Shown: one piece after another, positions 25,741-44,030 of the stretch
Layout: the number at the start of each line of letters is the position of its first letter
Position numbering within the stretch: position 1 is the stretch's first letter
DNA from: Draconibacterium mangrovi
GTDB lineage: Bacteria > Bacteroidota > Bacteroidia > Bacteroidales > Prolixibacteraceae
Assembly (NCBI RefSeq): GCF_010586825.1
Contig: NZ_JAAAGB010000006.1
Span: forward strand, 186,001-250,000
Direction: 5' to 3'
Length of the DNA stretch: 64,000 nt
Position numbers and translations under genes: made by a program
Notes under the pieces: model-generated
What the model was told of the DNA's origin: nothing
The model's input: only the letters and a program-made list of their open reading frames with translations
Database searches by the model: none

Positions 25741-25809
25741 AAGGGCTGTCGGAAAATTCCGACAGCCCTTTTTTTGTTTTGGATTCGGTCTTGGACCGGA
25801 TTTTTTTTT
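25741..25809 (+). terminator. Tandem terminators after paralog 1
   Basis: First hairpin: AAGGGCTGTCGG (25741-25752) with CCGACAGCCCTT (25759-25770) and a T7 tail. Second hairpin: ATTCGGTC (25783-25790) with GACCGGAT (25794-25801) and a T9 tail. The rest of the gap up to 26111 holds no ORF I can support. Confidence 0.88.
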
Positions 25810-26199: not shown

Positions 26200-26236
26200 T
26201 ACTGTCATTCAATGTTAAACTAAAAAATGAATGGTT

Positions 26237-26821: not shown

Positions 26822-26845
26822 TCAGAAAATGTTATTAGTTTAGTT

Positions 26846-26942
26846 AAGGCTATCAGGAAAGGCAACTGATAGCCTTTTTTTTTGTTTTAGTTTTTCCCCA
26901 GAATTTGATTGTAGGAGCCGGTTGTTGAGACCGGTTTTTTTT
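26846..26942 (+). terminator. Tandem terminators after paralog 2
   Basis: First hairpin: AAGGCTATCAG (26846-26856) with CTGATAGCCTT (26866-26876) and a T-run to 26884. Second, weaker hairpin: GCCGGT (26917-26922) with ACCGGT (26930-26935) followed by T7. The same two-hairpin arrangement follows paralog 1. Confidence 0.8.
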
Positions 26943-27047
26943 GTGTTGGCCGACACTAGCTTGTTGTTGGTCGACTAGTCGCCAAATGGAGTAACGAAAG
27001 GTGCTGTTTTTGTGTCTATTAAGTAAGAAACAATTAAATGAAAAGTC

Positions 27048-27695: not shown

Positions 27696-27724
27696 AGCTT
27701 TGCAAGGATTTGCAGAGCTTTTTT
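27696..27724 (+). terminator. Terminator after paralog 3
   Basis: AGCTTTGCA (27696-27704) pairs with TGCAGAGCT (27711-27719), one wobble, followed by T6. It separates the paralog cluster from the ABC/RND operon. 27725-27914 shows no ORF; a near-match to the -7 box (TATGCTTTG, one base too long) lies about 45 bp before the GTG start. Confidence 0.75.
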
Positions 27725-27914: not shown

Positions 27915-28808
27915 GTGCATATTAAAATAGAAAATCTAAACAAAATCTACAAGGGAGGCAGTTACGCTGTAAATAACCTCAACCTTGAAATTCCAAATGG
28001 TATGTTTGGCCTTTTAGGTCCAAACGGGGCTGGGAAATCAACACTGATGCGCATTTTGGTAACGCTAATGAAACCAACAAGCGGCAAAGTATATTTCAAC
28101 GATTATGAACTTTCGAAACATCGCCGCGAGATTCGCTCGATGTTGGGTTATTTGCCCCAGGATTTTAGTTTCTTCTCTAAATTAAAAACCTCCGAATTTC
28201 TCGATTATACTGCCCGTTTGGCAGGTATGAAAAGCGGGGCAGCACGCCGCAGTGCCGTTGACCAAATGCTGGAAGAAGTAGGTTTGTTTGAAGTGCGCGA
28301 CAGAAATGCGAATAAACTTTCAGGTGGTATGAAACGCCGTTTGGGAATTGCCCAGGCGCTGATAAATGATCCGCAGATTATTATTGTGGATGAACCTACT
28401 ACCGGTCTCGACCCCGAAGAACGTATCCGCTTCCGTAACCTGCTTTCAACCATTAGTACCCGCGACGTAATTATTATCCTGTCGACACACATTGTGGGCG
28501 ATATTTCGAGTACCTGCGATAATATGGCATTACTCAACCAGGGAAAACTGGCATTTGCCGGATCGCCGGAGCAACTGGTAAAAGAAGCCGAAGGCCATGT
28601 TTGGGTAATAGAAGCTACTGAACAGGAATACCTTGAGATAAACGAAAAATACCCTGTAATTTCTACCATCCCGATCGATGGAGGCTGGGAGGTGCAGGTT
28701 GTTGCCAATGAGATTGACGGTTACCAGGGAAAACCCATGGACCCAAATCTGGAGCACGCTTATGTGCACTTTATGGAAAACAAACTAAACCAATGGTCTA
28801 ACGCTTAA
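27915..28808 (+). CDS. ABC transporter ATP-binding protein, first gene of the composite RND/ABC operon
   Basis: 297-residue cytoplasmic ATPase, GTG start. Walker A GLLGPNGAGKST with Lys41, Q-loop LPQDFSFF near residue 82, signature LSGGMKRRLGIAQ (135-147), Walker B IIIVDEPTTGLDP with Asp159/Glu160, and switch His in LSTHIVGD. ABC-2 (CcmA/NatA-like) type. The last 70 residues are a regulatory tail. It is followed after 10 bp by its evident membrane partner. It shares long blocks with the ATPase domain fused to the second RND permease (MFGLLGPNGAGKST, ERIRFRNLL, LEDAY-like tail), so the two ATPases are probably duplicates. Confidence 0.95.
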   Translation: MHIKIENLNKIYKGGSYAVNNLNLEIPNGMFGLLGPNGAGKSTLMRILVTLMKPTSGKVYFNDYELSKHRREIRSMLGYLPQDFSFFSKLKTSEFLDYTARLAGMKSGAARRSAVDQMLEEVGLFEVRDRNANKLSGGMKRRLGIAQALINDPQIIIVDEPTTGLDPEERIRFRNLLSTISTRDVIIILSTHIVGDISSTCDNMALLNQGKLAFAGSPEQLVKEAEGHVWVIEATEQEYLEINEKYPVISTIPIDGGWEVQVVANEIDGYQGKPMDPNLEHAYVHFMENKLNQWSNA

Positions 28809-28818
28809 AACCGGATAA

Positions 28819-31800
28819 ATGATTTCGTTACATAACATATTTTCGATAGCAAAATACGAGCGGAAAACACTTTTTCGCAGCTGGTTTTTCCGCATATTCA
28901 GTATACTCTCATTGTTCGTATTGTTTGGTTTAAACTTCGGAATGGTGATTGAAGGCGGTGGTGGTGAAAGCTGGGCCATCCGTGCGATTCCGAGTGCGAT
29001 TCCGTATTTTAATTTGCTGATTTTAAACGTGGCCCAGGCAGTAATTGCTGTGTTTTTGGCCTCCGACTTTTTAAAACGCGATAAAAAATTAGATACCACC
29101 GAAGTAATCTACATGCGCTCGATGACCAATGGCGAATACGTGATCGGAAAAACACTGGGCAACATGCAGGTGTTTATGATTCTGAACATCGCGGTGGTTA
29201 TTCTGGCACTTGTTTTTAATGCGCTGGCCAAAGGTACTCCCATCGATTGGGTTTCGTACGGCGTGTATTTGGTGCTGATAAGTATTCCAACCCTTGTTTT
29301 TATTATGGGCTTGTCGTTTTTGCTGATGAGCGTAATCCGCAACCAGGCCATCACTTTTGTTTTGGTGCTTGGTTATATCGGTATCACCCTCTTCCTTTTA
29401 CAGGCAAAATATTATTACATTTTCGATTACATGGCGTTTAACATCCCCATGTTAAGTTCCGATATTGTTGGATTTAGCAATCTTGATGTAATTCTTATCC
29501 ATCGCGGAATATATTTCGGATTGGGTTCAGGTTTCATTTTCCTTACCATTTTCTTGCTCAAACGTCTGCCACAGTCGGAAGCAATGACCTACGTGTCGCT
29601 ATTTTTTAGTGTTGTGTTTATTGGTGGTGCCGGTTATCTGGCTTTTAATCACATCAACAGTTTCAAAAAAACAGAAGCTTTACGTGCCGATATCATCGAG
29701 TTGAATAATCAATATGTAAAAGAACCACTGGCCGATGTGCTTTCGCACGATATTGTACTCGATCATAATGGCGAGTCGTTGAGTGTGCAGTCGGCAATGA
29801 TGCTGAAAAATAATTTGGAGCAGCCTTTGTCGAAACTGATTTTTAGTTTGAATGCAGGTCTGGAAATTACCGATCTGAAAGTAAACGGAAAAACTACCCC
29901 GTTTTTGCGCGAAGATCATCTGGTTATCCTGTCCGATCAGCTAAGCCTGCAACCCGGCGACAGTACAAAAGTTGAATTTACATACAACGGAACAATCGAC
30001 GAAGCGTATTGCTACCTGGATATCGACGAAGAACAACGACAGGAAAAATACGGACAATTTGTATTGAATGTTGACAAACGTTATGCTTTTGTAACGCCCA
30101 ATTATGTGTTGCTTACCCGCGAAGCCAACTGGTATCCGAAAGTTGGTGTTACGTACAGCTCTGAAGATGTGAGTTGGTACAAACCTGAGTTTGTGGATTA
30201 TTCGTTAACGGTGAACACAAAAGAGGGATTACAACCGGTTTCGGAAGGTGAAATGACAGAAGTTTCGGCAGGTAAGTTCCATTTTGAGCCGGAAACACCG
30301 CTAACACAACTTTCGCTGGCTATTGGCAAATATGAATATAAAAGTCTGGAGCATAATGATTTTGAATTTGGCATTTGGCTCGTCGAAGGTCACGATTATT
30401 TCAACAGTGTTTTCCCGGAGTCGAAAGATACCCTGGCATCAGTAATTTACGAGCGTTTTGAGGATTTCAAACGAGGTTATAACCTGGAGTACAATTCCGA
30501 TAAACTGGCACTGGTTGAGGTTCCGGCGCAGTTTAAAACCTACCAACGTATGTGGACATCGGTGCAGGAAGTTATTCAGCCAGGCAAGGTGCTGATTCAG
30601 GAAAAAGGCTACATGTTTCGCGAAGCCGATTTTGAAAAACAAAAAGAACGAATGGGCCGTTGGAGAGGTCGTGGAGGCGGTGGCGAAATGACCGACGAAG
30701 ACAAAGAGTTGCGCGTTCTTGGGCAGTTTCTCGAGAAATTTACAGAGCAAAATGAAACCGATCGCCGATGGTCGCGAGGAGAAATGAGCGTGGAACAATC
30801 GTCAAATCCGTATTTTATTTTTCCCTGGTTGTACAATTTTCAAAACAATATTCAATCGGACAAATGGCCGATTACCAACCGGGTTTTCGAGGCATATTTA
30901 AAAAGCCAGTCTACCGATATGCGATCACTTTTTATGAGTAGCATGAGTGGCGAAAGCCCTGATATTATGGCAAATATTGCCTTGCAGGATTATTCGTTCG
31001 AGGAAATTCTTGCCGATCCGGATCAAAGCGATATTATTAATAATGTAATTAAACTGAAAGGCGATGTGCTTTTCTCAACCATAAAACTGGAAGCCGGCCA
31101 GGAAGATTTTGAAGATTTTCTGCGCGGGGTGCTGGAGAAGTACAAGTACCAGAATATCTCGTTCGAGGAATTTGATGAAGAGATTAAAGCCAGGTTTGAG
31201 ATAGAGCTGGAACCAATGATGAACAGTTGGTTTAAAGCCAAATCATTGCCCGGTTACCTGGTTTCGCCAATAAAAGGTGTAAAAGTAAAATCGGGCGATG
31301 CCATGAAAACCATGATCTCGCTTAAAGTTACCAACTTCTCGGATGTTGATGGTATTATAAAACTCACCTTCCGCCTTGCCGGAGGTGGTGGCGGCGGTGG
31401 TTTTGGCCCTCCGGGAATGGGCTCGGAAGAAACGGTGGATAAACTTATTGAATTAGCCGCCCACCAAACCAAAGAAATGAGCTATCTGTTTGATGGCACT
31501 CCGCGTATGGTCATTTTTAATTCTTTAACATCGAAAAATGTTCCGCAAACCTATATGGAAATGTTCCGCGAAGTGGAAGAAGACCTGAAAGCCAGGGTGT
31601 GGGAAGGAGAACGTATCAGTTCAACTGCAGTACAAACAAAACTTCCGAATGAGGAGATTGTAGATAACGAAGATCCGGGATTTGAAGTGACAGAAAATCA
31701 CCAGGTGAGTTTGCTCGAAAAACTTATTGTAAAAGAAGAAGAGACAAAGCAGAAATATTCGAGTGTAAACCAGTGGAGGCCTCCAATGTCGTGGACTGCT

Positions 31801-32166
31801 ACTACCAGCGACGAGTTTTATGGCGAATACGTTCGTTCGGCCTATTATATTAAAGGCGGAAACGGCGAGCAGGTTGCCCGTTGGAATGTTCCGGTGAAAG
31901 AGGCCGGTTACTACGATGTGTATTACCACTTTTATAAAGGACGCGGGTTTGGCCGTAACCGTGGAGAAGAAAAAGGAAGTTTAAACTTTATAATTCATGC
32001 CGACGACGGAGAAGAAGAGGCTTACCTTGATTCGCAAAGTACCGAAACCGGGTGGGTGCATTTAGGCTCATTTTATTTCTCGTCCGAAAAGGCGGTTATT
32101 GAATTAACGGATAAAACCGAATTGCGAATGATATACGCCGACGCGGTAAAAATTGTGAAATTATAA
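28819..32166 (+). CDS. ABC-2 permease fused to a degenerate M1-peptidase-like region and a golvesin-like domain
   Basis: 1115 aa. The N-terminal quarter is an ABC-2 type membrane domain with about seven helices (around 18-42, 60-78, 105-130, 140-165, 170-195, 225-248 and 255-275). After that comes a large exported portion whose layout resembles the M1 aminopeptidase part of ABC permease/M1 proteins (LVEVPAQFKTYQRMW, VIQPGKVLIQEKGY near residues 565-600), but no HExxH zinc site can be found. In its place is a charged, glycine-rich insert (GRWRGRGGGGEMTDEDKE). A second Gly7 run lies near residue 860. The last 110 residues (YVRSAYYIKGGNGEQVARWNVPV, GYYDVYYHF, GWVHLGSFYF, YADAVKIVKL) match the golvesin C-terminal/xanthan-lyase-associated beta-sandwich. 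Pairs with the ATPase 10 bp upstream. Confidence 0.8.
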   Translation: MISLHNIFSIAKYERKTLFRSWFFRIFSILSLFVLFGLNFGMVIEGGGGESWAIRAIPSAIPYFNLLILNVAQAVIAVFLASDFLKRDKKLDTTEVIYMRSMTNGEYVIGKTLGNMQVFMILNIAVVILALVFNALAKGTPIDWVSYGVYLVLISIPTLVFIMGLSFLLMSVIRNQAITFVLVLGYIGITLFLLQAKYYYIFDYMAFNIPMLSSDIVGFSNLDVILIHRGIYFGLGSGFIFLTIFLLKRLPQSEAMTYVSLFFSVVFIGGAGYLAFNHINSFKKTEALRADIIELNNQYVKEPLADVLSHDIVLDHNGESLSVQSAMMLKNNLEQPLSKLIFSLNAGLEITDLKVNGKTTPFLREDHLVILSDQLSLQPGDSTKVEFTYNGTIDEAYCYLDIDEEQRQEKYGQFVLNVDKRYAFVTPNYVLLTREANWYPKVGVTYSSEDVSWYKPEFVDYSLTVNTKEGLQPVSEGEMTEVSAGKFHFEPETPLTQLSLAIGKYEYKSLEHNDFEFGIWLVEGHDYFNSVFPESKDTLASVIYERFEDFKRGYNLEYNSDKLALVEVPAQFKTYQRMWTSVQEVIQPGKVLIQEKGYMFREADFEKQKERMGRWRGRGGGGEMTDEDKELRVLGQFLEKFTEQNETDRRWSRGEMSVEQSSNPYFIFPWLYNFQNNIQSDKWPITNRVFEAYLKSQSTDMRSLFMSSMSGESPDIMANIALQDYSFEEILADPDQSDIINNVIKLKGDVLFSTIKLEAGQEDFEDFLRGVLEKYKYQNISFEEFDEEIKARFEIELEPMMNSWFKAKSLPGYLVSPIKGVKVKSGDAMKTMISLKVTNFSDVDGIIKLTFRLAGGGGGGGFGPPGMGSEETVDKLIELAAHQTKEMSYLFDGTPRMVIFNSLTSKNVPQTYMEMFREVEEDLKARVWEGERISSTAVQTKLPNEEIVDNEDPGFEVTENHQVSLLEKLIVKEEETKQKYSSVNQWRPPMSWTATTSDEFYGEYVRSAYYIKGGNGEQVARWNVPVKEAGYYDVYYHFYKGRGFGRNRGEEKGSLNFIIHADDGEEEAYLDSQSTETGWVHLGSFYFSSEKAVIELTDKTELRMIYADAVKIVKL

Positions 32167-32253
32167 AATAAATCAGCATACGTTTCGAGCTAAGTGCTTG
32201 TAAAACAAGGATGAATTCGGAGCGGAACCATTGAAGAAAAAATTTTAAAGAAG

Positions 32254-33750
32254 ATGAAAACAAAAATCAAACTTATGCAAAAGCTGGCAATTGCCTTGTT
32301 TCTTATGGCGGCTGCAACTTTTGCTCTTCAGGCACAGGAAGCCTTAACCCTGGAAAGGGCTTTAAGTATTGCCGAAACGGGAAGCCCTGATTTGAAGCTG
32401 TCGTTATTAAATCTCGAGCGCTACCAAAAAAATCTGGAAGCCCAGCGAGCCGCTCTGAAATCACGTTTCTCGTTGCAGGTTAATCCTGTAAATTACAGTA
32501 AACAGAGGCGTTTCGACAACCGTGTTTCCGAGTGGTATACCAACGAAAACTTCGAAACAAGTACTTTATTTACAGTTGCTCAGCCAATTTTAATAACCGA
32601 TGGTACTATCTCGCTAACCAACGAGTTTGGGTGGTCGAGTAATAATTCCAGTTCATCATTCACCGAAAGTGAGGTATTCTTTAATAACCTCTATTTAAAC
32701 CTGAATCAGCCCTTATTTACTTATAACACTTTAAAGTTACAACTTAAGGAGCTGGAGCTGAACTTTGAAAATGCCCGCATCAGTTACGCAATGCAGTATC
32801 TGAACCTTGAAAGAAGTGTGACTGAGTTTTTCTACAATGTTTATATGGCGCAAATGAACTTGTCGATTGCCAAAGATGAGCTGGTCAATACACAAAAAAG
32901 TTACGACATAATTAAAAACAAAGTTGAAGCCGGTTTGGCTGCAAAAGAAGAAGAATACCAGGCGGAATTGAACCTGGCATCGGCCAAATCTACTTTGCAA
33001 AACAGCGAAGTAACCTTCGAAAACGCCAAAGACCAGTTGAAGCTTTATTTAGGCATGGATCTTTTTGAAGATATCATGATTTTAGCCGATGTTAGCGTAA
33101 ACCCGGTTCCGGTTGATTTAGATAAAGCCATTAAAAATGGTTTGGAATCAAGAATGGAGTTGCGTCAACGCGAAATCGATGTGGAAACCAGTCAGTTCGA
33201 TCTTATCCGTACTAAAGCACAGAATGAATTCAGAGGAGACATGAATTTGCGTTTTGGTATTACCGGCGATAACAATGAGTTGGGTAATATTTACCAAAAT
33301 CCAACCAAAAGTCCGTCGGTAGGTATCAGTTTTAATATCCCAATTTTCGACTGGGGCGAACGTAAAGCAAGAATTGCCGCTGCCGAAGCGGCTATCGAAT
33401 CGCAAGAGTTGAACCTGAATGAAGAAAAGAAACAAATTGTTGTTGATATTCGCCAGGTTTACCGTAACATCCTAAACCAGTTGAACCAGATTGATTTGGC
33501 CAAACAAAATGAACGCAATGCTCAACTAACTTACGAAATTAACCTTGAACGTTACGAAAACGGCGACCTGACAGGTATGGATTTAAACCTGTATCAAAAC
33601 CAGCTTTCGTCTCAAAAAGTGGCATTGAGCCAGGCGCTTATAAATTATAAAATCGAATTATTAAACCTTAAAATACAATCGTTGTACGATTTCGAAAAAG
33701 ACGAAGCCATTATTCCTGAGGAATTGTACGTAATCGATAGTCAAAAATAA
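32254..33750 (+). CDS. TolC family outer-membrane channel
   Basis: 498 aa; signal peptide through FALQAQEA, then the outer membrane efflux protein repeats: long periodic helices (LTLERALSIAETGSPDLKLSLLNLERYQKNLEAQ; the second half begins near VPVDLDKAIKNGLESRMELRQREID) and short barrel strands (SVGISFNIPIFDWGERKARI, the conserved IPxFDWG box). It provides the outer-membrane exit duct of the tripartite pump. It follows the permease by 87 bp and precedes the adaptor by 20 bp. Confidence 0.94.
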   Translation: MKTKIKLMQKLAIALFLMAAATFALQAQEALTLERALSIAETGSPDLKLSLLNLERYQKNLEAQRAALKSRFSLQVNPVNYSKQRRFDNRVSEWYTNENFETSTLFTVAQPILITDGTISLTNEFGWSSNNSSSSFTESEVFFNNLYLNLNQPLFTYNTLKLQLKELELNFENARISYAMQYLNLERSVTEFFYNVYMAQMNLSIAKDELVNTQKSYDIIKNKVEAGLAAKEEEYQAELNLASAKSTLQNSEVTFENAKDQLKLYLGMDLFEDIMILADVSVNPVPVDLDKAIKNGLESRMELRQREIDVETSQFDLIRTKAQNEFRGDMNLRFGITGDNNELGNIYQNPTKSPSVGISFNIPIFDWGERKARIAAAEAAIESQELNLNEEKKQIVVDIRQVYRNILNQLNQIDLAKQNERNAQLTYEINLERYENGDLTGMDLNLYQNQLSSQKVALSQALINYKIELLNLKIQSLYDFEKDEAIIPEELYVIDSQK

Positions 33751-33770
33751 AACTGAAAAAATTACCAAAA

Positions 33771-34829
33771 ATGAAGCATATAAAATTACTTATCGTGTTA
33801 GGTGTTGTTGTTGCCGCCATTTCGTGTAACAACCAAACCGGTTCTGAGTCAACTGAGTTAGCTGTTCCTGTTTCAGTTGAAAACATCAAGCTTAAAAGTA
33901 TTCAGCAATTTGTAAGTACAACCGGAAGCGCAAAAGCCGTGTACGAGACCGAATTGAGTTCTGAAATTCAAGGAAATTATATTTTACAAACCAACCCGAG
34001 AACGGGCCGCAAATTTCAATTGGGCGACCGCGTAGAAAAAGGTCAGGTTATTGTAAAACTGGAAAATGCAGAATACCTGAACGGACTGAATATTGAGTCT
34101 ATAAAACTAAATCTTGAGATTTCAGAGCAGGAATACGAAAAACAGAAGTCGCTGTACGAAAAAGGTGGTGTTACACTGCTCGAAATGCGTAACTCTGAAG
34201 TTTCGATGATTTCAGCCAAAAATAACTACGAAAGTGCTGAAATACAGTTGGCAAAAATGCAGGTTGTTGCTCCTTTCTCTGGAATCATTGTAGCACTGCC
34301 TTATTACACCGAGGGTGTTCGCGTATCGTCTGGCGAGAGTATGGTTAGCCTGATGAACTACAACAAAATGTATGTGGAGATCAACCTTCCGGAAAAAAAC
34401 ATTTCGGAAGTAACTACCGGGCAGGAAGTAATGATTACCAACTATACACTTACCGAAGATACGCTTGTGGGGCATGTTACGGAACTGTCGCCAATTATCA
34501 GCGACGAAACACGCACATTTACAGGTAAGCTCGAAATTGATAATCCGGAACTGAAACTACGTCCGGGAATGTTTATAAAAGCCAACATTATTACGGCTCA
34601 AAAAGACAGTGCCGTAGTTATTCCGAAAGACGTGATAATGACCGGTTCGCGCGGGAAATATGTGTTTATTGTTGGGCGTAACAGCGCTGCCAACGATCGT
34701 CGTATCACGACAGGTATCTCCAACCAGGATGAAATTGAAGTACTGGAAGGCCTCAGCCCCAACGACCGTTTGATTATAAAAGGATTTGAAACACTCCGCG
34801 ATAATTCAAAAGTAAAAGTGATTTTATAG
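33771..34829 (+). CDS. RND efflux periplasmic adaptor (MFP), lipoprotein
   Basis: 352 aa. Lipobox AAISC anchors it to the inner membrane. Lipoyl/hairpin/beta-barrel order is visible: SSEIQGNYIL..GDRVEKGQVIVKLEN (first lipoyl half), an alpha-hairpin at about 95-145, VVAPFSGIIVALPYYTEGVRVSSGESM (second lipoyl half), the beta-barrel with LRPGMFIKANI, and the membrane-proximal end (GLSPNDRLIIKGFETLRDNSKVKV). The only adaptor in the operon, 30 bp before the first RND permease. Confidence 0.95.
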   Translation: MKHIKLLIVLGVVVAAISCNNQTGSESTELAVPVSVENIKLKSIQQFVSTTGSAKAVYETELSSEIQGNYILQTNPRTGRKFQLGDRVEKGQVIVKLENAEYLNGLNIESIKLNLEISEQEYEKQKSLYEKGGVTLLEMRNSEVSMISAKNNYESAEIQLAKMQVVAPFSGIIVALPYYTEGVRVSSGESMVSLMNYNKMYVEINLPEKNISEVTTGQEVMITNYTLTEDTLVGHVTELSPIISDETRTFTGKLEIDNPELKLRPGMFIKANIITAQKDSAVVIPKDVIMTGSRGKYVFIVGRNSAANDRRITTGISNQDEIEVLEGLSPNDRLIIKGFETLRDNSKVKVIL

Positions 34830-34859
34830 AGTAGCCGGTAAAACAAAGACAAATCAGTT

Positions 34860-37800
34860 ATGAAAAAATTAACGCAATTTTCTGTCAATTACCCGGTTAC
34901 CGTTTTAATGGTGGTGCTTGGCGTTTTATTGCTGGGCTACATTTCGTACGATAAATTGGGGGTCGACCTGTTTCCCGATCTGAACTCACCCCGCATTTTT
35001 GTGGAAGTGACTTCGGGCGAGCGCCCTCCGGAAGAAATGGAGCAGCAGTTTGTTGAAAACATCGAAGCACTTGCCATTCGTCAGTCCGACGTGGTACAGG
35101 TAACTTCTTCATCAAGGGTAGGATCGGCACAAATAACCGTAGAATACGCCTGGAATAAAGATATGGACGAAGCTTTTCTCGACCTGCAAAAGGCCTTGAA
35201 TACGCTTACCCAGAATTCCGATATCGACGAACTTCAGATAACCCAGCACGATCCGAACACAACCCCGGTAATGATAATTGGGCTGAAGCACAACGAAATT
35301 ACCAACATGAACGAGCTGCGAAAAGTAGCTGAAAACTATGTAAGAAACGAGTTGGTTCGTTTGGAAGGTGTTGCCGAAGTTGAACTGTCGGGCCAAGAAG
35401 AAAGTGAGATAATTATTGAAACCGATATTTACCGGCTCGATGCGCAGGGTCTTTCCATGGACGAAGTGGCATCGCGCATCCAGAATTTTAACCGCAACGT
35501 TTCCGGTGGTCAAATCACCGACATGGGTACGCAATACATTGTAAAGGGTGTATCGATGTTGCAAACGGTGGAGGATTTTGAAAACCTGATTGTGGGTTAC
35601 AAAGCTGTTCGCAGCGCTGAAACAAACGCTAATCAAAATCAGGGCTCAATGGCTCCGGTTTATTTAAAAGATATTGCAGCAGTTTCTATCGGCAATAAAG
35701 AACCAACAAACATTGTTCATATAAACGGCGAACGTTGTTTGGGACTATCTATTTACAAAGAAACCAAATTCAATACTGTAAATGCGGTTGATCAAATTAA
35801 CGAAGCATTGGTGGATATTGAAAAAGCACTTCCCGGTTACGAATTGATTGGCGTAACCAACCAAGGGCGTTTTATCAGCAGTGCCATTGGCGAAGTGCAG
35901 GATACAGCTTTACTGGGTATTTTGCTGGCAGTGGTGGTTTTATTTATTTTTCTACGTCGTTTCGGAACTACACTGATTGTAAGTGTTGCCATTCCAATTT
36001 CGATTGTTGCCACTTTCAACCTGATGTATTTTAACCACCTCACCATAAATATTATGACTTTGGGAGGGCTCGCCTTAGGTGCGGGTATGTTGGTTGACAA
36101 TGCCATTGTGGTTATGGAGAATATATTCCGAAACCACGAAAACGGCATGAGTGTAAAAGACGCGGCAATTAACGGAACTGCCGAGGTTGGCGGGGCAATT
36201 ACAGCATCAACGCTTACCACCATTATCGTTTTTCTGCCAATAGTTTATTTGCACGGTGCTTCGGGCGAGTTGTTTAAAGATCAGGCCTGGACGGTTGCAT
36301 TTTCGCTGCTTTCGTCGTTGGTAGTAGCTATCTTTTTAATCCCGATGATGTACCACCGTTTTTACCGAAAACGAACTGCACCGCTGAAATCAAAATCGGT
36401 AAAAGTTGGAGGGTATGGCCGTTTCTTATCAAAAGTAATCGATGCAAAATGGGTGGTTATAATAATTACAACCTTAGCGATTGGTGGAGCCGGATTGTTG
36501 ATACCGCACATTGGTACCGAGTTTATGCCAAAAACACAAACACACGAACTTACTGTTAACCTGAAATTGCAGGAAGGAACAGAACTGGAGCGCACAGAAT
36601 CGACAGTAAGAAATCTGGAAGGTATTTTAATGGATTACCTGGGCGATAATTTAGATAAAATTTATGCGCAGGCGGGTCCGTCGTCAAGTATTTCGGGTGA
36701 CCAGAATGCTGTTTTTGAAGGCGAAAATACGGCAGAGTTAAAAGTGATTCTTAAACCTGAATCAACCATCTCAACCGAAAGTATTGTAAAAACACTCGAC
36801 CAGTTAACTTCTAATATTGAAGGACTCGAAGTTAGTTTTTCGCAGGAAGAAAGTGCACTTCAGTCAATTCTTGGAACCGACGAAGCACCAGTTGTGGTTG
36901 AGGTTCGTGGCGAGGAACTGGACGAGATCGAGCGTGTTGTTAACCAGGTAAAAGAAAAAATGCAGGGTGTTAACGGACTGTTTAATATTCAAACATCGAT
37001 TGAAGATGGTGCGCCTGAAGTTGAAATTCATGTCGACCGCATGCGCGCCGGAATGTACAACATCGATATTAACAGTGTAATTACGCAAATGCAGGATCAG
37101 TTGCAGGGGAAAGATGCCGGCGAACTGGAACGCAGTGGCGAAATGCAGGATATTACCATTAAAGTTCCCGAGAAAAGTATCGATGAAATCGGTTCGCTGA
37201 TCATCACATCGGGCGACCAGGTTTTCCGTTTAAGCGAAATTGCCGATATCAGTTTTGGCGTATCGCCAAAAGAAATTTTCAGAAGGAACCAGAACCGCAT
37301 AGGAAAGGTTACTGCACAGTTGGAAGACGGTATTCCGTTGGATCATGTGGCAAACGATATTCGTATGCAGACAGCAAGCATCGATTTATTACCCGATTAC
37401 CGTATCATGGTAACCGGTGAAGAGGAGAAACGTCAGGAATCATTGACTAACCTTACTTTTGCATTGTTGCTTTCTATTGTGTTGGTTTACATGGTTCTGG
37501 CCTCTCAGTTCGAGTCGCTCATTCACCCGTTTACCATTCTGTTGACTATTCCGCTGGCTGTGGTTGGTAGTGTTCTCGTCTTCTTTATTCTCGGAAAAAC
37601 ATTCAACATTATGGCCATTATCGGGGTGATTATGTTGGTGGGTATTGCCGTAAACGACTCGATCATTCTGGTCGACCGGATCAATCAGCTCATCCGCGAA
37701 GGGGTAGAACGAAAACAAGCCATTCTGCAAGCCGGGCAGCAACGTATTCGGCCAATTGTTATGACCAGTTTAACAACCATATTAGCCCTGTTACCACTTA

Positions 37801-37955
37801 CCGTTGGTTTTGGCGAAAGTGCATCGCTGCGTTCGCCAATGGCGCTGGCAGTGGTTGGCGGTTTGGTAACATCAACTTTGCTTACCCTTATTGTAATACC
37901 TTGTGTTTACGATGTTTTGGATAGGGTGAGAAGTGTTTTTGTGAAGAAGAATTAG
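34860..37955 (+). CDS. RND (HAE1-type) efflux permease 1
   Basis: 1031 aa, normal AcrB-like length with twelve membrane helices and two large periplasmic loops. Family cues: VNYPVTVLMVVLGVLLLGYISY at the start and PDLNSPRIFVEVTSG. TM4 reads GAGMLVDNAIVVMENIFR, with Asp413 at the position of the first proton-relay aspartate of AcrB (D407) and Asn in place of the second. TM10 reads GIAVNDSIILVDRIN, with Asn where AcrB has its lysine. The C-terminal half has ASQFESLIHPFTILLTIPLAVVG. With the TolC and MFP genes just upstream it forms a classical tripartite pump. Confidence 0.95.
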   Translation: MKKLTQFSVNYPVTVLMVVLGVLLLGYISYDKLGVDLFPDLNSPRIFVEVTSGERPPEEMEQQFVENIEALAIRQSDVVQVTSSSRVGSAQITVEYAWNKDMDEAFLDLQKALNTLTQNSDIDELQITQHDPNTTPVMIIGLKHNEITNMNELRKVAENYVRNELVRLEGVAEVELSGQEESEIIIETDIYRLDAQGLSMDEVASRIQNFNRNVSGGQITDMGTQYIVKGVSMLQTVEDFENLIVGYKAVRSAETNANQNQGSMAPVYLKDIAAVSIGNKEPTNIVHINGERCLGLSIYKETKFNTVNAVDQINEALVDIEKALPGYELIGVTNQGRFISSAIGEVQDTALLGILLAVVVLFIFLRRFGTTLIVSVAIPISIVATFNLMYFNHLTINIMTLGGLALGAGMLVDNAIVVMENIFRNHENGMSVKDAAINGTAEVGGAITASTLTTIIVFLPIVYLHGASGELFKDQAWTVAFSLLSSLVVAIFLIPMMYHRFYRKRTAPLKSKSVKVGGYGRFLSKVIDAKWVVIIITTLAIGGAGLLIPHIGTEFMPKTQTHELTVNLKLQEGTELERTESTVRNLEGILMDYLGDNLDKIYAQAGPSSSISGDQNAVFEGENTAELKVILKPESTISTESIVKTLDQLTSNIEGLEVSFSQEESALQSILGTDEAPVVVEVRGEELDEIERVVNQVKEKMQGVNGLFNIQTSIEDGAPEVEIHVDRMRAGMYNIDINSVITQMQDQLQGKDAGELERSGEMQDITIKVPEKSIDEIGSLIITSGDQVFRLSEIADISFGVSPKEIFRRNQNRIGKVTAQLEDGIPLDHVANDIRMQTASIDLLPDYRIMVTGEEEKRQESLTNLTFALLLSIVLVYMVLASQFESLIHPFTILLTIPLAVVGSVLVFFILGKTFNIMAIIGVIMLVGIAVNDSIILVDRINQLIREGVERKQAILQAGQQRIRPIVMTSLTTILALLPLTVGFGESASLRSPMALAVVGGLVTSTLLTLIVIPCVYDVLDRVRSVFVKKN

Positions 37956-37956
37956 A

Positions 37957-38412
37957 ACACAGATGACGTTGATTTAACTGAAACTCGCTGATAGATGAAA
38001 ATGGATTACAAATATTCTGATTTAACCGAAGCAATAATTAAATGCTTCTATAAGGTTTACAATGAATTGGGATATGGTTTTCTGAAAAAAGTCTATCACA
38101 ATGCACTTTTAATTGAGTTGCAAAATGAGGAGTTGAAAGTTGAATCGCAGAAACCAATAAAAGTAAGTTATCAGGGTGATGTAGTTGGAGAATATTATGC
38201 CGATATTATTGTGGAGGATGTTGTAATTCTTGAGCTAAAAGCAACCGAAACTGTGACTGAAGCGCATGAGTTTCAACTGATAAATTATTTGAAAGCGACG
38301 AATATAGAAATTGGTTTACTGCTAAACTTTGGGAAGAAACCAGAAATACGGAGGAAAATATTTACTAATAAAAAATCTGTGAATATCAGCTAAACCTGCG
38401 TCATCAGCGTTC
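37957..38412. mobile_element. GxxExxY gene within imperfect terminal inverted repeats
   Basis: A 33-bp left end (37960-37992, starting CAGATGACGTTGATTT) and the reverse complement of the right end (about 38375-38407) agree at 24 of 33 positions. The unit of about 450 bp contains one gene, whose last codons lie inside the right repeat. It interrupts an otherwise tight operon between the two RND permease genes. No transposase is present and no clear target duplication was seen, so mobility is inferred. Confidence 0.5.
37995..38393 (+). CDS. GxxExxY protein
   Basis: 132 aa, the usual length for this PD-(D/E)XK-like family. Blocks: NELGYGFLKKVYHNALLIEL, where the signature G-x-x-E-x-x-Y reads G-F-L-K-K-V-Y with Lys replacing Glu, then IKVSYQGDVVGEYYADIIVEDVVILELKATETVTEAHEFQLINYLKATNIEIGLLLNFG. 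The nuclease-like Asp and ELK are intact (YADIIVED, ILELKA). The biological role of the family is unknown. Base composition is richer in A/T than the pump genes. Flanking inverted repeats suggest it arrived as a unit and is not functionally part of the pump. Confidence 0.85.
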   Translation: MKMDYKYSDLTEAIIKCFYKVYNELGYGFLKKVYHNALLIELQNEELKVESQKPIKVSYQGDVVGEYYADIIVEDVVILELKATETVTEAHEFQLINYLKATNIEIGLLLNFGKKPEIRRKIFTNKKSVNIS

Positions 38413-38426
38413 CAAAAAAGAAAAAA

Positions 38427-38513
38427 ATGAAACGAGCAATAAAAATATTTACGCCTAGTATGGTTAGATTATTTGCGAGTTCCATACGATACCTTTTAAA
38501 GCATAAAATCTAA
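38427..38513 (+). CDS. 28-residue cationic ORF directly before the RND-ABC fusion gene
   Basis: ATG at 38427 opens 28 codons ending at TAA 38511-38513, four bases before the ATG of the fusion gene. The peptide begins MKRAIKIFTPSMVRLF and ends RYLLKHKI: short, basic and amphipathic. The A-rich run before its ATG looks like a translation leader. It may be a coupling leader peptide, a small membrane-associated subunit, or chance. No homologue known to me. Confidence 0.35.
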   Translation: MKRAIKIFTPSMVRLFASSIRYLLKHKI

Positions 38514-38517
38514 TCGT

Positions 38518-41500
38518 ATGAAATTCATTATCAACAGAAAAATATTCATCAGTATGCTGTTTCTGGGATTAACCATGTTGGGTTATATCTCTTACAAACA
38601 GTTGCCGGTGGAACTTATGCCAAATGCCGAGCTCCCGATGCTGTATGTCCAGATCCGGTCGCAGATTGAGGTCGATCCGAGCTATTTGGAAAATCAGGCC
38701 GTTATTCCGGTTGAAGGAGCGATCGGGACGATGGAAGGTATTGAAGATATGGAGTCGTCTATTAATAACCGATCGGCATCTATCCAGGTAAATTTTAAAC
38801 AGAACGTCAACTTTAAATACACTTTCCTGAAATTGCAGGAGAAGATTGATCTTATTGCCGGCGAGCTCGATGATAACTTTACTGTAACGGTTAACCGTGT
38901 TGATCTGGATCAGCTTACCAATCAGTTTATGGAACTGCAGATTCGTGGTAGCGGGGGAGTTGATCGCGTGCGTAATATCGTTGACCAGGAAATTACCGCC
39001 CAAATGGAGAACATTGATGGGGTGGCTTCGGTTTCGGTTTTTGGTGGTAAAGAGCGTTCGATTGAAGTAACCTACGATGCAGGTGCCTGCGAGGCCTACG
39101 GAATTACACCGGCTCAAATTCGAAGTGCTATTTCAGGCAATTCTACCAACCGAACATTTACCGGTTACCTGCACGATGCACAGAAGCAGTATTTTGTGCA
39201 TGTTACGGCCGAATACGATAAAGTTTCGGATATCGAAAACATAGTTGTGGCCGATGGCCCGATTTATTTAAAAGATGTAGCCGATGTATTTTTTGGTGTA
39301 AAAGAAGAAACATCGATCAGTCGTATAAACGGATTGGATGCGGTTTCGATGAGCCTGGTGAGCGATTCACAGGCCAACCTTATCGAACTGTCGCATAACG
39401 TACAGGCCGAAATTGCGGAATTAAACAGAAAATTGGCTGCCAAAGATGTACAAATCGTGGTTCAGACCAACCTGGCCGAAACCATGGAGAAAAACATCGA
39501 TCAGATTATTGATCTGGCACTGGTTGGAGGTTTGCTGGCCATTTTTGTACTTTGGATGTTCCTGAAAAACCTGCGCATTGTTTCATTTATTGCACTGGCC
39601 ATTCCAATTTCCGTGTTTACCGCATTCAACCTGTTTTACGCTTTTAATATTTCGCTGAACAGTTTAACACTGGTGGGTCTTGTATTGGCTATTGGTATGC
39701 TGCTCGACAATAGTATTGTGGTGCTCGAAAATATATACCGACTCTCGGGAAATAAAATGAGCCCCGAGCAATCGGTAACACAGGGAACAAAAGAGGTTTG
39801 GCGTTCGATTGTAGCGGCTACGCTTACTACTGTAACTGTATTTTTACCCTTTGTTTTCTCTACCGATTACATGGTGAAACTGTTGGGTAACCACGTGGGG
39901 GTTTCCATTATTTCTACGCTCATTGTTTCGTTATTTGTGGCCTTGCTGTTAATTCCAATGGCGGCTCACTTGCTGTTGCGCAAAAAACGTCAACACAATG
40001 TGTTTTACGAAAAGGTTACCACCAATAACCGCATTATACAAATTTACATTCTGTTGCTGAAAGCCAGTATGCGCGTTCCTGCGCGTACAATTATTGGTGC
40101 ATTGGTGTTCTTCTTCTTAACCGTATTTATTGTGTTGGCAATTAGTGTCACCAACTTGCAGGAGGTTGAAGAGGAGCAATTCAATATTTATGTTACCATG
40201 CCAACCGGTACAACACTGGAAGCAACCGACAAAGTAGTTGCCGATGTGGAAAGCCGGCTGGAAGATGTTGCTGAAAAGCAGGATCTGTCCGCCAATATCG
40301 AGGCCGAGGAAGCTATTCTGACATTTATTCTTCGCGAAGATTACAAAGATATTGATGACCGTACTATTGCCGAAATCAAAAAGGATGTTGAAGATCGTCT
40401 TCGTAATGTTTCGCAGGGAGAGGTTGGCCTTGATGCGCCTACGTCGAGTGCACGTTTCCGTGGCGGTGGTGGCGGTGGTGGCCGTTCAGGCACCCAGGGA
40501 TTCCAGCAATTTATGGGAATTGGCTCGGATCAGGAGCGTGTAGTTATAAAAGGCGAAAACTTTGAGGTGATGAAAGGTGTGGCCGAAGACTTGCTGTACT
40601 ACATCGAAGATCTTGAAACGATTCGTCGTGCAAACATTAGTGTGGCGAACAACCGGCCCGAAGTACATATGTATTTCAACCAGATGCTGCTGACCGAATA
40701 TGGAATTACACTTCAGAATATAACATCGGAGCTGGGAACATTTACAAGCCAGTTTACCTCGGGAGTTAATTTTAAGCAGGGTACGGAAGAATATGAAATC
40801 GTAATCAAAGAAAAATTACCCGATGGTGTTGAAGAAGAGGATAATGAAAAAGGTATTGAAGATCTTCGTCGCCTGCAGGTAAGCAATAATCAGGGCGCTA
40901 CCTACGATATGGACGAACTGGCTGATATGGTGTATGCCGAAGGAATGGCCAGCATTACCCGTGTAAACCAGGAAAAACAGATTGAATTAACCTACCGGTT
41001 TGTTGATGAAGCCAGCGAGTCGAAAGATCTGCTGGAGGCTTACCGGTTGGAGATCGACGAGATAATCGGTGCTTATAAACTGCCTTCCGGAGTTGCGGTT
41101 GAGGTAATTCACGAAGAGGACCAGTATGCTGAATTTAAGTTTCTGATTGCTGCTGCATTCATTCTTATTTTAATGATTCTGGCATCGGTTTTCGAATCGG
41201 TATCAACGCCGTTTGTACTGATATTCTCAATTCCTCTGGCTGCCATTGGATCATTCCTGGCACTGATATTTACCGGAAACAGCCTGTTTAACGCCAACAC
41301 TTTAATGGGCTTTATTATCCTGATTGGGGTGGTGGTGAACAACGGAATTATACTGATTGATTATACCAATATTCTACGAAAACGGGGCTTCCGAAAATCG
41401 CGTGCCTTAATGGCTGCCGGTCTTTCGCGTGTTCGCCCGATTTTAATTACGGCCATTACTACCATTGTAGCATTATTTCCGCTGGCAATGGGGCAGGCTG

Positions 41501-43242
41501 AATATGTGGGTGCTATTGGAGCGCCGTTTGCCATTACTGTAATTGGCGGTTTGGCATTAAGTACGGTGCTTACCCTGGTTTTCATTCCAACATTATACGC
41601 AGGAATGGAAAATGCGTTAGACTGGATTAAATCGTTACATCTTGGCTTAAAACTCGGCATGTTAACGGTGTTTATCATCGGTGCTGTTCTTATTTACCTA
41701 CGCGTGGATAGCTTTGTATGGCAGCTGCTCGATTTTATTCTGTTGGTTATTTTGGTGCCGGGTGTTGTAGCTTTTACAATGACCAGTTTGCGCCAGGCCA
41801 GCGAAAAAGTTGTGGACGAAAACGAGCCGATAAGAATTAAAGTAAGAAGGCTGGTGAAAATTTACGATCGCGATTCTCGATTTGTACGCGAGTGGAAATC
41901 GGGATTAAGAATTCGCGAACGTGCCGGATTAAAGAAAGATTATAAACATCTCCGCGATTTTTCAGATCTCGTATGGCATATCCCGCTGTTTGTTTTTGTG
42001 GCTTATTTCACCTTCTTCTACATCGAAAACCATATCTGGATGTGGGTGTTGTCGCACGGTGTTTTCTTTTTCCTTTTCTTGCTTAGGGTGCCGCTAAACC
42101 AGGTGCTGATTAATAAACATGAAGCTACAGGCAAGGCATTCTATCTGAAACTGAATAAGTGGATCTATAACATATTGTTCTGGATTGTCCCGCTGGTTTT
42201 CCTGCTCTATTTCTACAAAGACTGGAATAACCTGGGCATGGTAATTTTCATTGCAATTATCTGGTATATTTTGCTGATTTTCTATGCTACCGCAGAATAC
42301 ATTCATAATAAAGAAGTAAATATTGCCCGTATTGAAGGACGTTTTGGTGGCTTGCGCCGTGGATACTTTAACATGGTTCGCCAAATTCCGGTAATCGGAA
42401 AACGCAAGAAGCCATTCAGGGCGTTGAACGGAGTTTCGCTGGAGATTAAAACCGGTATGTTTGGTTTACTTGGGCCAAACGGTGCCGGTAAATCAACCAT
42501 GATGCGGATTATTACCGGAGTGCTCGAACAGAGTTACGGAAAGATCTGGATTAACGGAATGGATACCCAAAAATACCGCGAGGAGTTGCAGGGTTTGATT
42601 GGTTATTTGCCACAGGCTTTTGGTACCTACGAAAATATGTCCGCATGGGAATTCCTGGATTATCAGGCTATACTGAAAGGTATAAAAGATACCAAAACGC
42701 GCGAAGACCGTTTGGAATATGTGCTGAAAAGTGTTCATATGTGGGAGCGTCGTACAGATAAAATCGGTGCATTCTCGGGCGGTATGAAACAACGTATTGG
42801 TATTGCACAAATTCTGCTGAACCTGCCACGTATTTTGGTGGTTGACGAACCTACCGCCGGTCTCGACCCGCGCGAACGTATTCGTTTCCGTAACTTGCTG
42901 GTAGAGCTGAGCCGCGAGCGGATCGTAATTTTCTCGACACACATTATCGAGGATATCTCGAGTTCGTGTAATCAGGTAGCCGTAATTAACCGGGGTAACC
43001 TGAAATATTTCGGAACACCAAACGATATGGTGAATATGGGTACTAATTTTGTTTGGCAATTCTCGGTTCCGGCTAAGGAATTTGATAATATGGCCAATAA
43101 ACAAATGATTGTTCACCACATGCGGGATGGCGAAAATATTAAGATGCGTTGTTTGGCGAAAGAAAAGCCTGCACCCGACGCTGTTAGTGTATTGCCAAAC
43201 CTTGAGGATGCTTATTTGTGTTTGTTAAAAGACTTTGTTTAA
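38518..43242 (+). CDS. RND permease fused to six extra membrane helices and an ABC ATPase domain
   Basis: 1574 aa in one unbroken frame. Residues 1-1035 are a complete HAE1-type RND permease: IFISMLFLGLTMLGYISYKQLPVELMPNAELP at the start; TM4 AIGMLLDNSIVVLENIYR with Asp397 as the proton-relay aspartate; TM10 GVVVNNGIILIDYTN; a Gly7 run near residue 648. Residues 1040-1260 hold about six further hydrophobic segments (near 1042-1062, 1066-1088, 1150-1170, 1174-1192, 1216-1234, 1238-1258). Residues 1295-1574 are a full ATPase domain: Walker A GLLGPNGAGKST near 1315-1326, Q-loop LPQAFGTY, signature FSGGMKQRIGIAQ, Walker B ILVVDEPTAGLDP, switch His in FSTHIIED. An RND pump normally runs on the proton gradient and an ABC transporter on ATP, so this combination is unusual. 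The downstream ABC-2 permease starts 6 bp later. Confidence 0.9.
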   Translation: MKFIINRKIFISMLFLGLTMLGYISYKQLPVELMPNAELPMLYVQIRSQIEVDPSYLENQAVIPVEGAIGTMEGIEDMESSINNRSASIQVNFKQNVNFKYTFLKLQEKIDLIAGELDDNFTVTVNRVDLDQLTNQFMELQIRGSGGVDRVRNIVDQEITAQMENIDGVASVSVFGGKERSIEVTYDAGACEAYGITPAQIRSAISGNSTNRTFTGYLHDAQKQYFVHVTAEYDKVSDIENIVVADGPIYLKDVADVFFGVKEETSISRINGLDAVSMSLVSDSQANLIELSHNVQAEIAELNRKLAAKDVQIVVQTNLAETMEKNIDQIIDLALVGGLLAIFVLWMFLKNLRIVSFIALAIPISVFTAFNLFYAFNISLNSLTLVGLVLAIGMLLDNSIVVLENIYRLSGNKMSPEQSVTQGTKEVWRSIVAATLTTVTVFLPFVFSTDYMVKLLGNHVGVSIISTLIVSLFVALLLIPMAAHLLLRKKRQHNVFYEKVTTNNRIIQIYILLLKASMRVPARTIIGALVFFFLTVFIVLAISVTNLQEVEEEQFNIYVTMPTGTTLEATDKVVADVESRLEDVAEKQDLSANIEAEEAILTFILREDYKDIDDRTIAEIKKDVEDRLRNVSQGEVGLDAPTSSARFRGGGGGGGRSGTQGFQQFMGIGSDQERVVIKGENFEVMKGVAEDLLYYIEDLETIRRANISVANNRPEVHMYFNQMLLTEYGITLQNITSELGTFTSQFTSGVNFKQGTEEYEIVIKEKLPDGVEEEDNEKGIEDLRRLQVSNNQGATYDMDELADMVYAEGMASITRVNQEKQIELTYRFVDEASESKDLLEAYRLEIDEIIGAYKLPSGVAVEVIHEEDQYAEFKFLIAAAFILILMILASVFESVSTPFVLIFSIPLAAIGSFLALIFTGNSLFNANTLMGFIILIGVVVNNGIILIDYTNILRKRGFRKSRALMAAGLSRVRPILITAITTIVALFPLAMGQAEYVGAIGAPFAITVIGGLALSTVLTLVFIPTLYAGMENALDWIKSLHLGLKLGMLTVFIIGAVLIYLRVDSFVWQLLDFILLVILVPGVVAFTMTSLRQASEKVVDENEPIRIKVRRLVKIYDRDSRFVREWKSGLRIRERAGLKKDYKHLRDFSDLVWHIPLFVFVAYFTFFYIENHIWMWVLSHGVFFFLFLLRVPLNQVLINKHEATGKAFYLKLNKWIYNILFWIVPLVFLLYFYKDWNNLGMVIFIAIIWYILLIFYATAEYIHNKEVNIARIEGRFGGLRRGYFNMVRQIPVIGKRKKPFRALNGVSLEIKTGMFGLLGPNGAGKSTMMRIITGVLEQSYGKIWINGMDTQKYREELQGLIGYLPQAFGTYENMSAWEFLDYQAILKGIKDTKTREDRLEYVLKSVHMWERRTDKIGAFSGGMKQRIGIAQILLNLPRILVVDEPTAGLDPRERIRFRNLLVELSRERIVIFSTHIIEDISSSCNQVAVINRGNLKYFGTPNDMVNMGTNFVWQFSVPAKEFDNMANKQMIVHHMRDGENIKMRCLAKEKPAPDAVSVLPNLEDAYLCLLKDFV

Positions 43243-43248
43243 GGAATT

Positions 43249-43971
43249 ATGGAAAGACAATTCGATATAAAAAACAGGCTGTATATTTTAATTAAAATGA
43301 TACGGTATAATTTAAGAATCATCTTTGCCAACCGGTTTATATGGTTTTTAATAGCAGCACTTGCATTCTTTTTGTTTTTTGCCATACAAACGGTATATAA
43401 TGGTGGCTCCATGTCGGAAGATGTGGTGTATAGCTTACTGATATTTCCTGGCATTTTACTCATTTTTTATCCTTCGGTTTTTGGTATACAAAATGATGAT
43501 GATTCGCGGATGTTGGAAATACTTTTCGGAATACCGAACTACCGTTATAAAGTTTGGCTGGTGCGGTTGGTAATGATCTATACACTTGTATTTGTTATTA
43601 TCTTTCTGTTTTCGGCCCTGGCTTCGGTACTGCTGTACAAAATTAACCTGCTGGAAATGTCGTACCAGTTAATGTACCCGATTATCTTTTTAGGATCGAT
43701 GGCATTTATGTTCTCTACCATTGTTAAAAACGGAAACGGAACAGCGGTAACCATGGTTTTAATTGGTGTGGCACTGCTGATATTGCGCGAAGATTTAATG
43801 CAGGGTACGCAGTGGGATGTTTTTCTGAACCCGTTTGAAATACCAAATAACCTGAACGAGGTGATCTGGATAGGAATAATCCGGAAGAACCGGATTTTTA
43901 TGGGGATAGCCACTCTGGTGTTTGTTCTGTACGGTCTTTTTAATCTGCAGAAACGAGAAAAGTTTGTTTAA
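43249..43971 (+). CDS. Small ABC-2 type membrane protein, last gene of the composite operon
   Basis: 240 aa with six membrane helices (about 28-48, 59-77, 103-124, 137-153, 160-178, 211-230) and a cytoplasmic N-terminus. FGIQNDDDSRMLEILFGIPNYRYKVWLVRL between helices 2 and 3 resembles the ABC-2 coupling region seen in NatB/GldF-like permeases. It has no stand-alone ATPase of its own. Its start lies 6 bp after the RND-ABC fusion, so the fused ATPase domain is the obvious partner. A strong terminator follows at 43989. Confidence 0.82.
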   Translation: MERQFDIKNRLYILIKMIRYNLRIIFANRFIWFLIAALAFFLFFAIQTVYNGGSMSEDVVYSLLIFPGILLIFYPSVFGIQNDDDSRMLEILFGIPNYRYKVWLVRLVMIYTLVFVIIFLFSALASVLLYKINLLEMSYQLMYPIIFLGSMAFMFSTIVKNGNGTAVTMVLIGVALLILREDLMQGTQWDVFLNPFEIPNNLNEVIWIGIIRKNRIFMGIATLVFVLYGLFNLQKREKFV

Positions 43972-43988: not shown

Positions 43989-44030
43989 GATGCCCTTACT
44001 CTGAGAATGAGTGAGGGCATCTCTGTTTTT
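43989..44030 (+). terminator. Terminator of the RND/ABC operon
   Basis: GATGCCCTTACTC (43989-44001) pairs with GAGTGAGGGCATC (44009-44021), 13 bp with one wobble, followed by TCTGTTTTT. Confidence 0.88.

Follow-up and report, generated by a model that had tools for sequence, protein, structure and literature searches.

A tripartite exporter is commonly taken to be powered either by a resistance-nodulation-cell division (RND) pump, which as a rule runs on protons, or by an ATP-binding cassette (ABC) pump, which runs on ATP; can the two be combined in a single machine? This question is raised by a gene cluster of Draconibacterium mangrovi, situated in a stretch of 64,000 nucleotides (positions 186,001 to 250,000 of contig NZ_JAAAGB010000006.1) that is referred to here as the window and to which all coordinates apply. 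An initial annotation had proposed that the cluster represents a composite RND/ABC export operon, and that proposal is now strongly supported: one of the ATPases and one of the RND permeases share a single polypeptide. Because of this fusion of RND and ABC ATPase, the reading as a composite machine is much stronger than was known at that time; the fusion had been overlooked, as had the M1-like and Golvesin_C domains of a membrane protein and the identity of a 132-aa open reading frame (ORF) as a GxxExxY protein.

The operon comprises eight ORFs rather than the nine first counted, all of them on the + strand between 27915 and 43971, so that the co-directional arrangement described earlier is upheld. 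The gaps between them, previously given as 4 to 87 bp, measure 10, 87, 20, 30, 39, 124 and 6 bp. Seven of the genes constitute the core set, and these are listed here together with the parts of the fusion protein (NBD, nucleotide-binding domain; TM, transmembrane).

27915-28808, + strand: ABC1, stand-alone ABC ATPase (NBD1), DrrA/GldA-like, 297 aa (PF00005, 1.9e-32)
28819-32166, + strand: ABC2M1, ABC-2 domain with a degenerate M1-peptidase-like region and Golvesin_C, 1115 aa (Pfam)
32254-33750, + strand: TolC/OEP outer-membrane channel, 498 aa (PF02321, 1.9e-45)
33771-34829, + strand: RND-type periplasmic adaptor with a lipoprotein-like N-terminus, 352 aa (TIGR01730 RND_mfp, 1e-56, above cut-off)
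34860-37955, + strand: RND1 permease, 1031 aa (PF00873, 1.1e-216; MdtB, 9lyq, is the top PDB sequence match)
38518-43242, + strand: RND2::ABC fusion, 1574 aa (PF00873, 8e-166, residues 2-1028, and PF00005, 1.2e-27, residues 1303-1447, in one ORF)
38518-41607, + strand: RND2 domain of the fusion, residues 1-1030 (PF00873)
41608-41817, + strand: linker with two long hydrophobic helices, probably TM, residues 1031-1100 (model helices 12-32 and 36-61)
41830-41895, + strand: predicted first strand of NBD2 and A-loop-like motif (IRIKVRRLVKIYDR..RFVREW; model strand 77-86, match to the NBD1 profile)
41965-42312, + strand: four long hydrophobic helices, probably TM, inserted after the predicted first strand of NBD2 (model helices 124-138, 142-174, 178-206 and 209-234)
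42412-43107, + strand: catalytic part of NBD2, Walker A to H-loop (invariant motifs; Foldseek matches to ABC NBDs)
43249-43971, + strand: TM240, 240-aa ABC-2-type membrane protein by its AlphaFold2 model and Foldseek, candidate partner of NBD2

Domain scans agree with the earlier assignment of one TolC-type channel, one RND adaptor, two RND permeases and two ABC ATPase domains, the second of which is a domain within the RND2::ABC ORF. An RND adaptor, an OEP channel and two differing RND permeases (27% identical to each other) are thus encoded together, as in a two-permease RND pump. The inner-membrane part extends beyond RND permeases, as an ABC NBD is fused to RND2 and other ABC parts are present in the operon.

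The order of elements in the fusion protein following the RND domain is two hydrophobic helices, the motif I-x-I-x-NLVK-I-Y-DR..RF.REW, four hydrophobic helices and then an ordinary ABC domain start. An AlphaFold2 model of residues 1031-1574, calculated with 42 sequences (mean predicted local distance difference test score, pLDDT, 84; predicted template modelling score, pTM, 0.66), contains a strand at 1107-1116, four long helices within 1154-1264 and the NBD strands thereafter. The conserved motif resembles an ABC domain's first strand and A-loop. A first-strand profile built from residues 2-14 of the stand-alone ATPase (NBD1) family had its best hit at this motif in 49 of 49 fusion proteins (mean 18.1 bits, minimum 7.4), while the same profile applied as a control to the RND1 proteins gave a mean of 5.0 and a maximum of 10.3 bits; the agreement in placement is the stronger part of this test. 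Given the order of strand, four helices and NBD strands in the model, together with the placement of the profile hits, NBD2 seems to be split by a membrane segment, in which case its first strand would pair with the remainder. In 44 of the 49 proteins, 189-207 residues separate the motif from Walker A. Two of the fusion proteins, from L080 and L081 (1633 and 1623 aa), contain long extra stretches of low-complexity appearance between the first-strand motif and the four-helix insert.

Both window ATPases possess Walker A, the signature, the Walker B Glu and the H-loop, so that by motif two competent NBDs appear to be encoded. In ABC1 these read GPNGAGKST, LSGGM, VDEPT and STH, respectively; in NBD2, residues G1319-K1325, S1420-Q1425, D1443-E1444 and H1475 are invariant in 34 fusion sequences. 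The structure matches of NBD2 are the NosF, ABCA and LptB ATPases (Foldseek). NBD1 and NBD2 are 42% identical; the tree does not support an origin of the two as sister duplicates. Pfam and NCBIfam scans of the fusion parts yielded general pump families only, and the fused gene is therefore probably annotated merely as separate pump parts. A plasmid origin was rejected, the blastn search of the NBD2 end against plasmids having returned six Halobacterium records with 23% coverage, annotated as ABC ATPases.

Of the two ABC-2 membrane partners proposed earlier, that in ABC2M1 stands (PF12679, 5.4e-7, above cut-off). TM240 of the window has no Pfam match of its own, and its ABC-2 nature derives from a model (pLDDT 89, pTM 0.86), for which Foldseek rows 1-32 are ABC exporters throughout (PmtCD, NosDFY, ABCG, ABCA), all weakly matched (best E value 0.022). 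ABC-2 Pfam families were found in 4 and 3 of 38 aligned TM240 sequences, and the only match to PDB sequences was a designed protein (E value 0.76). TM240 is thus best described as having an ABC-2-like fold by weak structure matches, and as a candidate partner of NBD2.

The further Pfam matches of ABC2M1 are PF01433 (1.3e-4, below cut-off) and PF25275 (5.1e-17). In an alignment of 36 sequences including that of the window, scanned at an E value of 0.01, Golvesin_C was found in 36, ABC2_membrane_2 in 23 and M1 in 17. The HExxH zinc motif of M1 aminopeptidases was absent in 46 of 47 ABC2M1 sequences; the sole instance, HETKH at residue 884 in L068, is situated outside the M1-matching stretch (728-804 in the window protein). 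M1 peptidase activity is, therefore, unlikely on this evidence.

It was of interest to establish what accompanies the fusion in other genomes, and 48 loci are suited to this, since they were picked for carrying the fused gene (20 from the family, 24 from the order and 4 from the phylum search). With two of them, cut by contig ends (L058, L070), left out, 46 complete loci besides the window remain that hold all seven genes. In the 46 of 46, the seven genes lie on one strand and in one order, which exceeds chance; gene order in related genomes had been one of the checks proposed with the initial annotation. Each junction is 100 bp or less in 34 to 44 of the 46 loci, with single gaps of up to 927-947 bp. 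The pairwise identities found for one gene of the set correlate with those found for the others (0.85-0.97 over 47 loci, 0.72-0.94 over the 27 loci outside the family), a correlation for which shared species history accounts in part. Immediately upstream of the operon in L071, before ABC1, there is a second ABC2M1-like ORF (896 aa, 27% identity).

The fused gene had a best match of E=0 in 126 of 140 genomes of the window's family (a hand count, in which some matches are cut by contig ends). As RND-only matches score near 370 bits in that table, E=0 is taken to represent the fusion. The remaining 14 genomes had weaker best matches; they include all four of genus g8, and 7 of the other 10 are less than 90% complete. 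Further afield, the fused gene was found in 42 of 295 genomes of the order and in 6 of 395 of a phylum sample, the window's own and one order genome included (both at E 1e-120), and in 39 of 118 genomes of the family of Parabacteroides massiliensis (G848; E 1e-150).

That the parts might occur independently and never together had been named at the outset as a result that would count against a composite operon, and it was not observed. Searches of the order with ABC2M1 and TM240, made independently of the fused gene, located them in 42 and 40 of the 295 genomes. Fusion and ABC2M1 occur together in 39 genomes, the fusion only in 3, ABC2M1 only in 3 and neither in 250; the corresponding numbers for fusion and TM240 are 40, 2, 0 (TM240 only) and 253. 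The probabilities of such co-occurrence (p=1.7e-41 and 1.8e-47, respectively) are overstated, as the genomes are related. Two of the three genomes with ABC2M1 only were fetched, and their contigs stop right after the adaptor or inside RND1.

Named carriers were sought by scanning genome contigs with two NBD patterns; 74 of the 80 matches listed lie only in or near the NBD. Among the matches listed, carriers comprise two Bacteroidales metagenome-assembled genomes (MAGs), a Proteiniphilum MAG, Parabacteroides massiliensis and a Carboxylicivirga MAG. All seven genes are present in order in L087 and L090, and likewise in L088 and L091, where ABC1 is cut by the locus edge; L089 begins at ABC2M1.

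The same scan listed a Latescibacterota contig whose encoded fusion protein is 34% identical and shares both the motif and the insert. In that phylum the fusion was found in 2 of 16 genomes (E 1e-130), the other 14 matching over the RND part only. The genome to which the listed contig belongs (G821) also has ABC1, ABC2M1, TolC and adaptor in this order on a further contig and RND1 on another, and a second genome (G836) has the fusion followed by TM240 on one contig. Four of 199 Acidobacteriota genomes carry the fusion, and in three of the four stretches the order is adaptor, RND1, RND2::ABC and TM240, the fourth being limited to TM240 and the end of the fusion. In two of these stretches ABC1 and ABC2M1 adjoin the others in the opposite direction. 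In L193:4355-7910, from Acidobacteriota, ABC2M1 is split into adjacent ORFs for an N-terminal part of 764 aa and a C-terminal part of 419 aa. In the class of an Ignavibacteria genome, the fusion was found in 1 of 119 genomes, probably the genome G546 of the phylum sample. The operon is, then, real, widely conserved and common to three phyla.

In phylogenetic trees, RND1, RND2 and NBD2 each form one clade with support of 100/100, and NBD1 one clade with 96/91; the comparison ABC genes in the NBD tree were drawn from matches listed by the genome-contig scan and are not a fair sample. Each of the four clades has rows from Bacteroidota, Latescibacterota and Acidobacteriota, and since it is common to these phyla the hybrid is probably ancient or has long been exchanged among them. 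Among unfused RNDs, the closest seen come from the sample of the Latescibacterota phylum (L195, L197). They belong to adaptor-RND-RND sets in which no match to the ABC profiles was found, and their kinship to RND2 has weak tree support (86/89). A simple history would be that a two-permease RND operon gained an ABC-2 exporter and that one fusion then fixed both.

Taken together, these data argue for one RND/ABC hybrid tripartite exporter, in which a mixed RND trimer is tethered to a heteromeric ABC-2 exporter; we assign this reading a probability of roughly 0.6. Its assembly, stoichiometry, hand-over of substrate and use of both energy sources we infer from sequence. RND1 and the RND part of the fusion would form a mixed trimer beneath the adaptor and TolC, as in MdtABC. 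On the cytoplasmic side, NBD2 of the fusion would pair with the stand-alone NBD1, the ABC membrane halves being TM240 and the ABC-2 part of ABC2M1. A trimer of composition (RND1)2(RND2::ABC)1 would contain a single NBD2 and, with it, a single heteromeric ABC-2 exporter, so that the mismatch between trimer and dimer would be solved; this 2:1 trimer with one ABC unit would be the simplest arrangement using every part. The ABC unit would use ATP to move or extract a cytoplasmic or inner-leaflet substrate and hand it to the RND part, perhaps via the M1-like/golvesin periplasmic domain, and the RND part would drive it into TolC by the ion gradient. An amphiphilic envelope compound or lipid-like molecule is our guess for the substrate. 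Use of two energy sources by a single transporter has a parallel in ArsB with ArsA. For a 2:1 RND trimer the precedent is MdtB2C1 (PMC7015380).

The more far-reaching claim is that of a new transporter class, an obligate primary/secondary hybrid found in three phyla, which spends both ATP and an ion gradient on one substrate, has one ABC unit per mixed trimer and joins RND to ABC ATPase via a membrane-inserted NBD; we consider the odds for and against it to be about even. The retention of the gene set in distantly related bacteria suggests an undescribed way of powering export. With a conserved RND and ABC protein in hand, it becomes testable whether proton and ATP motors drive one substrate through one exit, how trimer and dimer match, and which cargo needs both motors.

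Several observations weigh against the hybrid exporter. Seven of the 49 first-strand profile scores, including that of the window (10.0 bits), fall in the range of the RND1 control; the four-helix insert is poorly conserved in the alignment, and is shorter in L082 and L083, where the motif is 135 residues from Walker A. The ABC-2 assignment of TM240 depends on the weak Foldseek E values given above. The junction of RND1 and fusion exceeds 100 bp in 12 of the 46 loci (up to 927 bp). To judge from the Acidobacteriota loci, ABC1 and ABC2M1 can be transcribed separately, and no match to TolC was found in the four Acidobacteriota stretches, two of which are short contigs. Second copies of ABC2M1 are present on other contigs of four genomes (G315, G414, G226 and G426) and a partial one in a fifth (G327), so that ABC2M1 may also act alone; the copy in G315 (L200:8370-11819) is situated apart from RND genes and is a possible stand-alone relative of the ABC-2/M1 protein. 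Finally, at what we take to be the positions of the second TM4 Asp and the TM10 Lys of AcrB, the window RNDs have Asn, and the ion relay of the RND parts differs in sequence from that of AcrB for this reason.

The ABC module might be an ATP-driven regulator or gate that opens, assembles or recharges the RND pump and carries no substrate. Mechanotransmission as proposed for MacB or FtsEX provides the pattern for such a role, which would suit both the tethering of NBD2 to RND2 by the fusion and the large degenerate enzyme-like part of ABC2M1, which might act in signalling instead of transport. With two membrane parts of ABC-2-like character and two ATPases whose motifs are intact, however, the set is that of a full transporter, and we regard a purely regulatory module as unlikely.

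Nor does it seem likely that the operon encodes two pumps, with ABC1 and ABC2M1 forming an exporter of their own beside an RND pump in which the second permease is equipped with an accessory ATPase, the two having only TolC or regulation in common. The divergent block in the two Acidobacteriota loci shows that ABC1 and ABC2M1 are separable, and the additional ABC2M1 copies, among them that seen apart from the RND genes in L200, point in the same direction. Yet this block stays adjacent to the other genes even where it is inverted, and ABC2M1 is found without the fused gene in just the 3 genomes of 295 mentioned above, the two that were fetched being contig-edge cases.

Quite improbable is an RND part whose ion coupling has been lost or changed, leaving the ABC part as the sole motor. 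What speaks for it is the Asp-Asn in place of Asp-Asp in TM4 of both window RNDs (the second residue being invariant in RND1 and mostly Asn in RND2) and the Asn at the TM10 Lys position, present in both window RNDs and in 49 of 49 RND2 sequences (RND1 was read in the window only). By contrast, all 49 rows of the RND1 alignment and all 49 of the RND2 alignment keep the first TM4 Asp, as in a hydrophobe/amphiphile efflux (HAE)-type ion relay. Moreover, a further RND of the same genome (L005, a 1179-aa frame) has the same Asp-Asn and Asn-Asn motifs, so the Asn pattern is not peculiar to the fusion. A frameshift, misassembly or chance neighbourhood can be dismissed on the comparative data, as the same fusion recurs in all 48 loci taken from other genomes, which were selected for its presence, and across three phyla, and the fused ORF is full length in many other assemblies, with no internal stop in the family, order and phylum search rows listed and a single TAG-bearing row among the fusion matches from the G848 family.

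No description of an RND-ABC fusion turned up in searches of an open-licence library, a scope outside which most subscription papers and all preprints lie. Like the hybrid exporter proposed here, MdtABC-TolC and MuxABC-OpmB combine one adaptor, two different RND permeases and a TolC-type channel, and MdtB is the best match among solved sequences for both RND1 and RND2. To our knowledge MdtABC and MuxABC have no ATPase; here, in contrast, an NBD is joined to one of the permeases and the operon supplies additional ABC parts. The tripartite ABC pumps (MacAB-TolC, VarACDEF and YbhGFSR, the last of ABC-2 type) resemble the present system in having an ABC engine, an adaptor and an outer-membrane channel, but the adaptor found here is of the RND_mfp family. 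The membrane subunits of the ABC-2/type V exporters NosDFY and PmtCD are the best matches of the TM240 model, and NosF is among those of NBD2; we know of no RND part, TolC or membrane insert in the NBD of either. ABC permease/M1 aminopeptidase fusions appear in the annotation of Bacteroidota genomes and, like ABC2M1, join an ABC-2 domain to an M1-like region, from which ABC2M1 differs in the nearly general absence of HExxH, in the added Golvesin_C and in the adjacent RND genes of the 46 complete loci. In VarACDEF of Vibrio cholerae, a channel and an adaptor are combined with one ATPase and two translocase subunits, with no mention of an RND part (PMC5595328). Mutants in RND and in ABC genes have been reported for P. 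merdae and B. thetaiotaomicron, none of which could be linked to this operon (PMC12669032). The system may be filed among the tripartite exporters, as a new RND/ABC hybrid type.

The remaining features of the operon and its borders are as follows.

37995-38393, + strand: GxxExxY PD-(D/E)XK protein, 132 aa, between RND1 and the fusion (TIGR04256, 1.9e-40)
43989-44021, + strand: terminator-like hairpin with T-run 3' of the operon, folded singly
27696-27719, + strand: terminator-like hairpin in the interval between the upstream gene and the operon (consensus match only)

The GxxExxY ORF is present between RND1 and the fusion in 3 of the 49 loci (the window, L039 and L044), and looks like an occasional insertion into the operon, outside the core set. 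L063 has a 92-aa ORF that is a possible GxxExxY remnant. The strong terminator placed at the end of the operon in the initial annotation is borne out by the hairpin at 43989-44021, the only one of the terminator-like hairpins to be folded individually, with a stability (-26.5 kcal/mol, z -6.1) equalled in 0 of 200 shuffles; the terminator scan overall is near shuffle expectation (21 found, 18.9 expected). Flanking genes in the window encode an aminotransferase, a phosphatase, proteins with sorting tails of the type IX secretion system (T9SS), a U32 peptidase and others. The T9SS-tail matches are those of three adjoining small proteins (193-196 aa) at 25133-27629, two of which also match DUF3244; in two of the three the tail-like match is, oddly, at residues 40-100 and not at the C-terminus.

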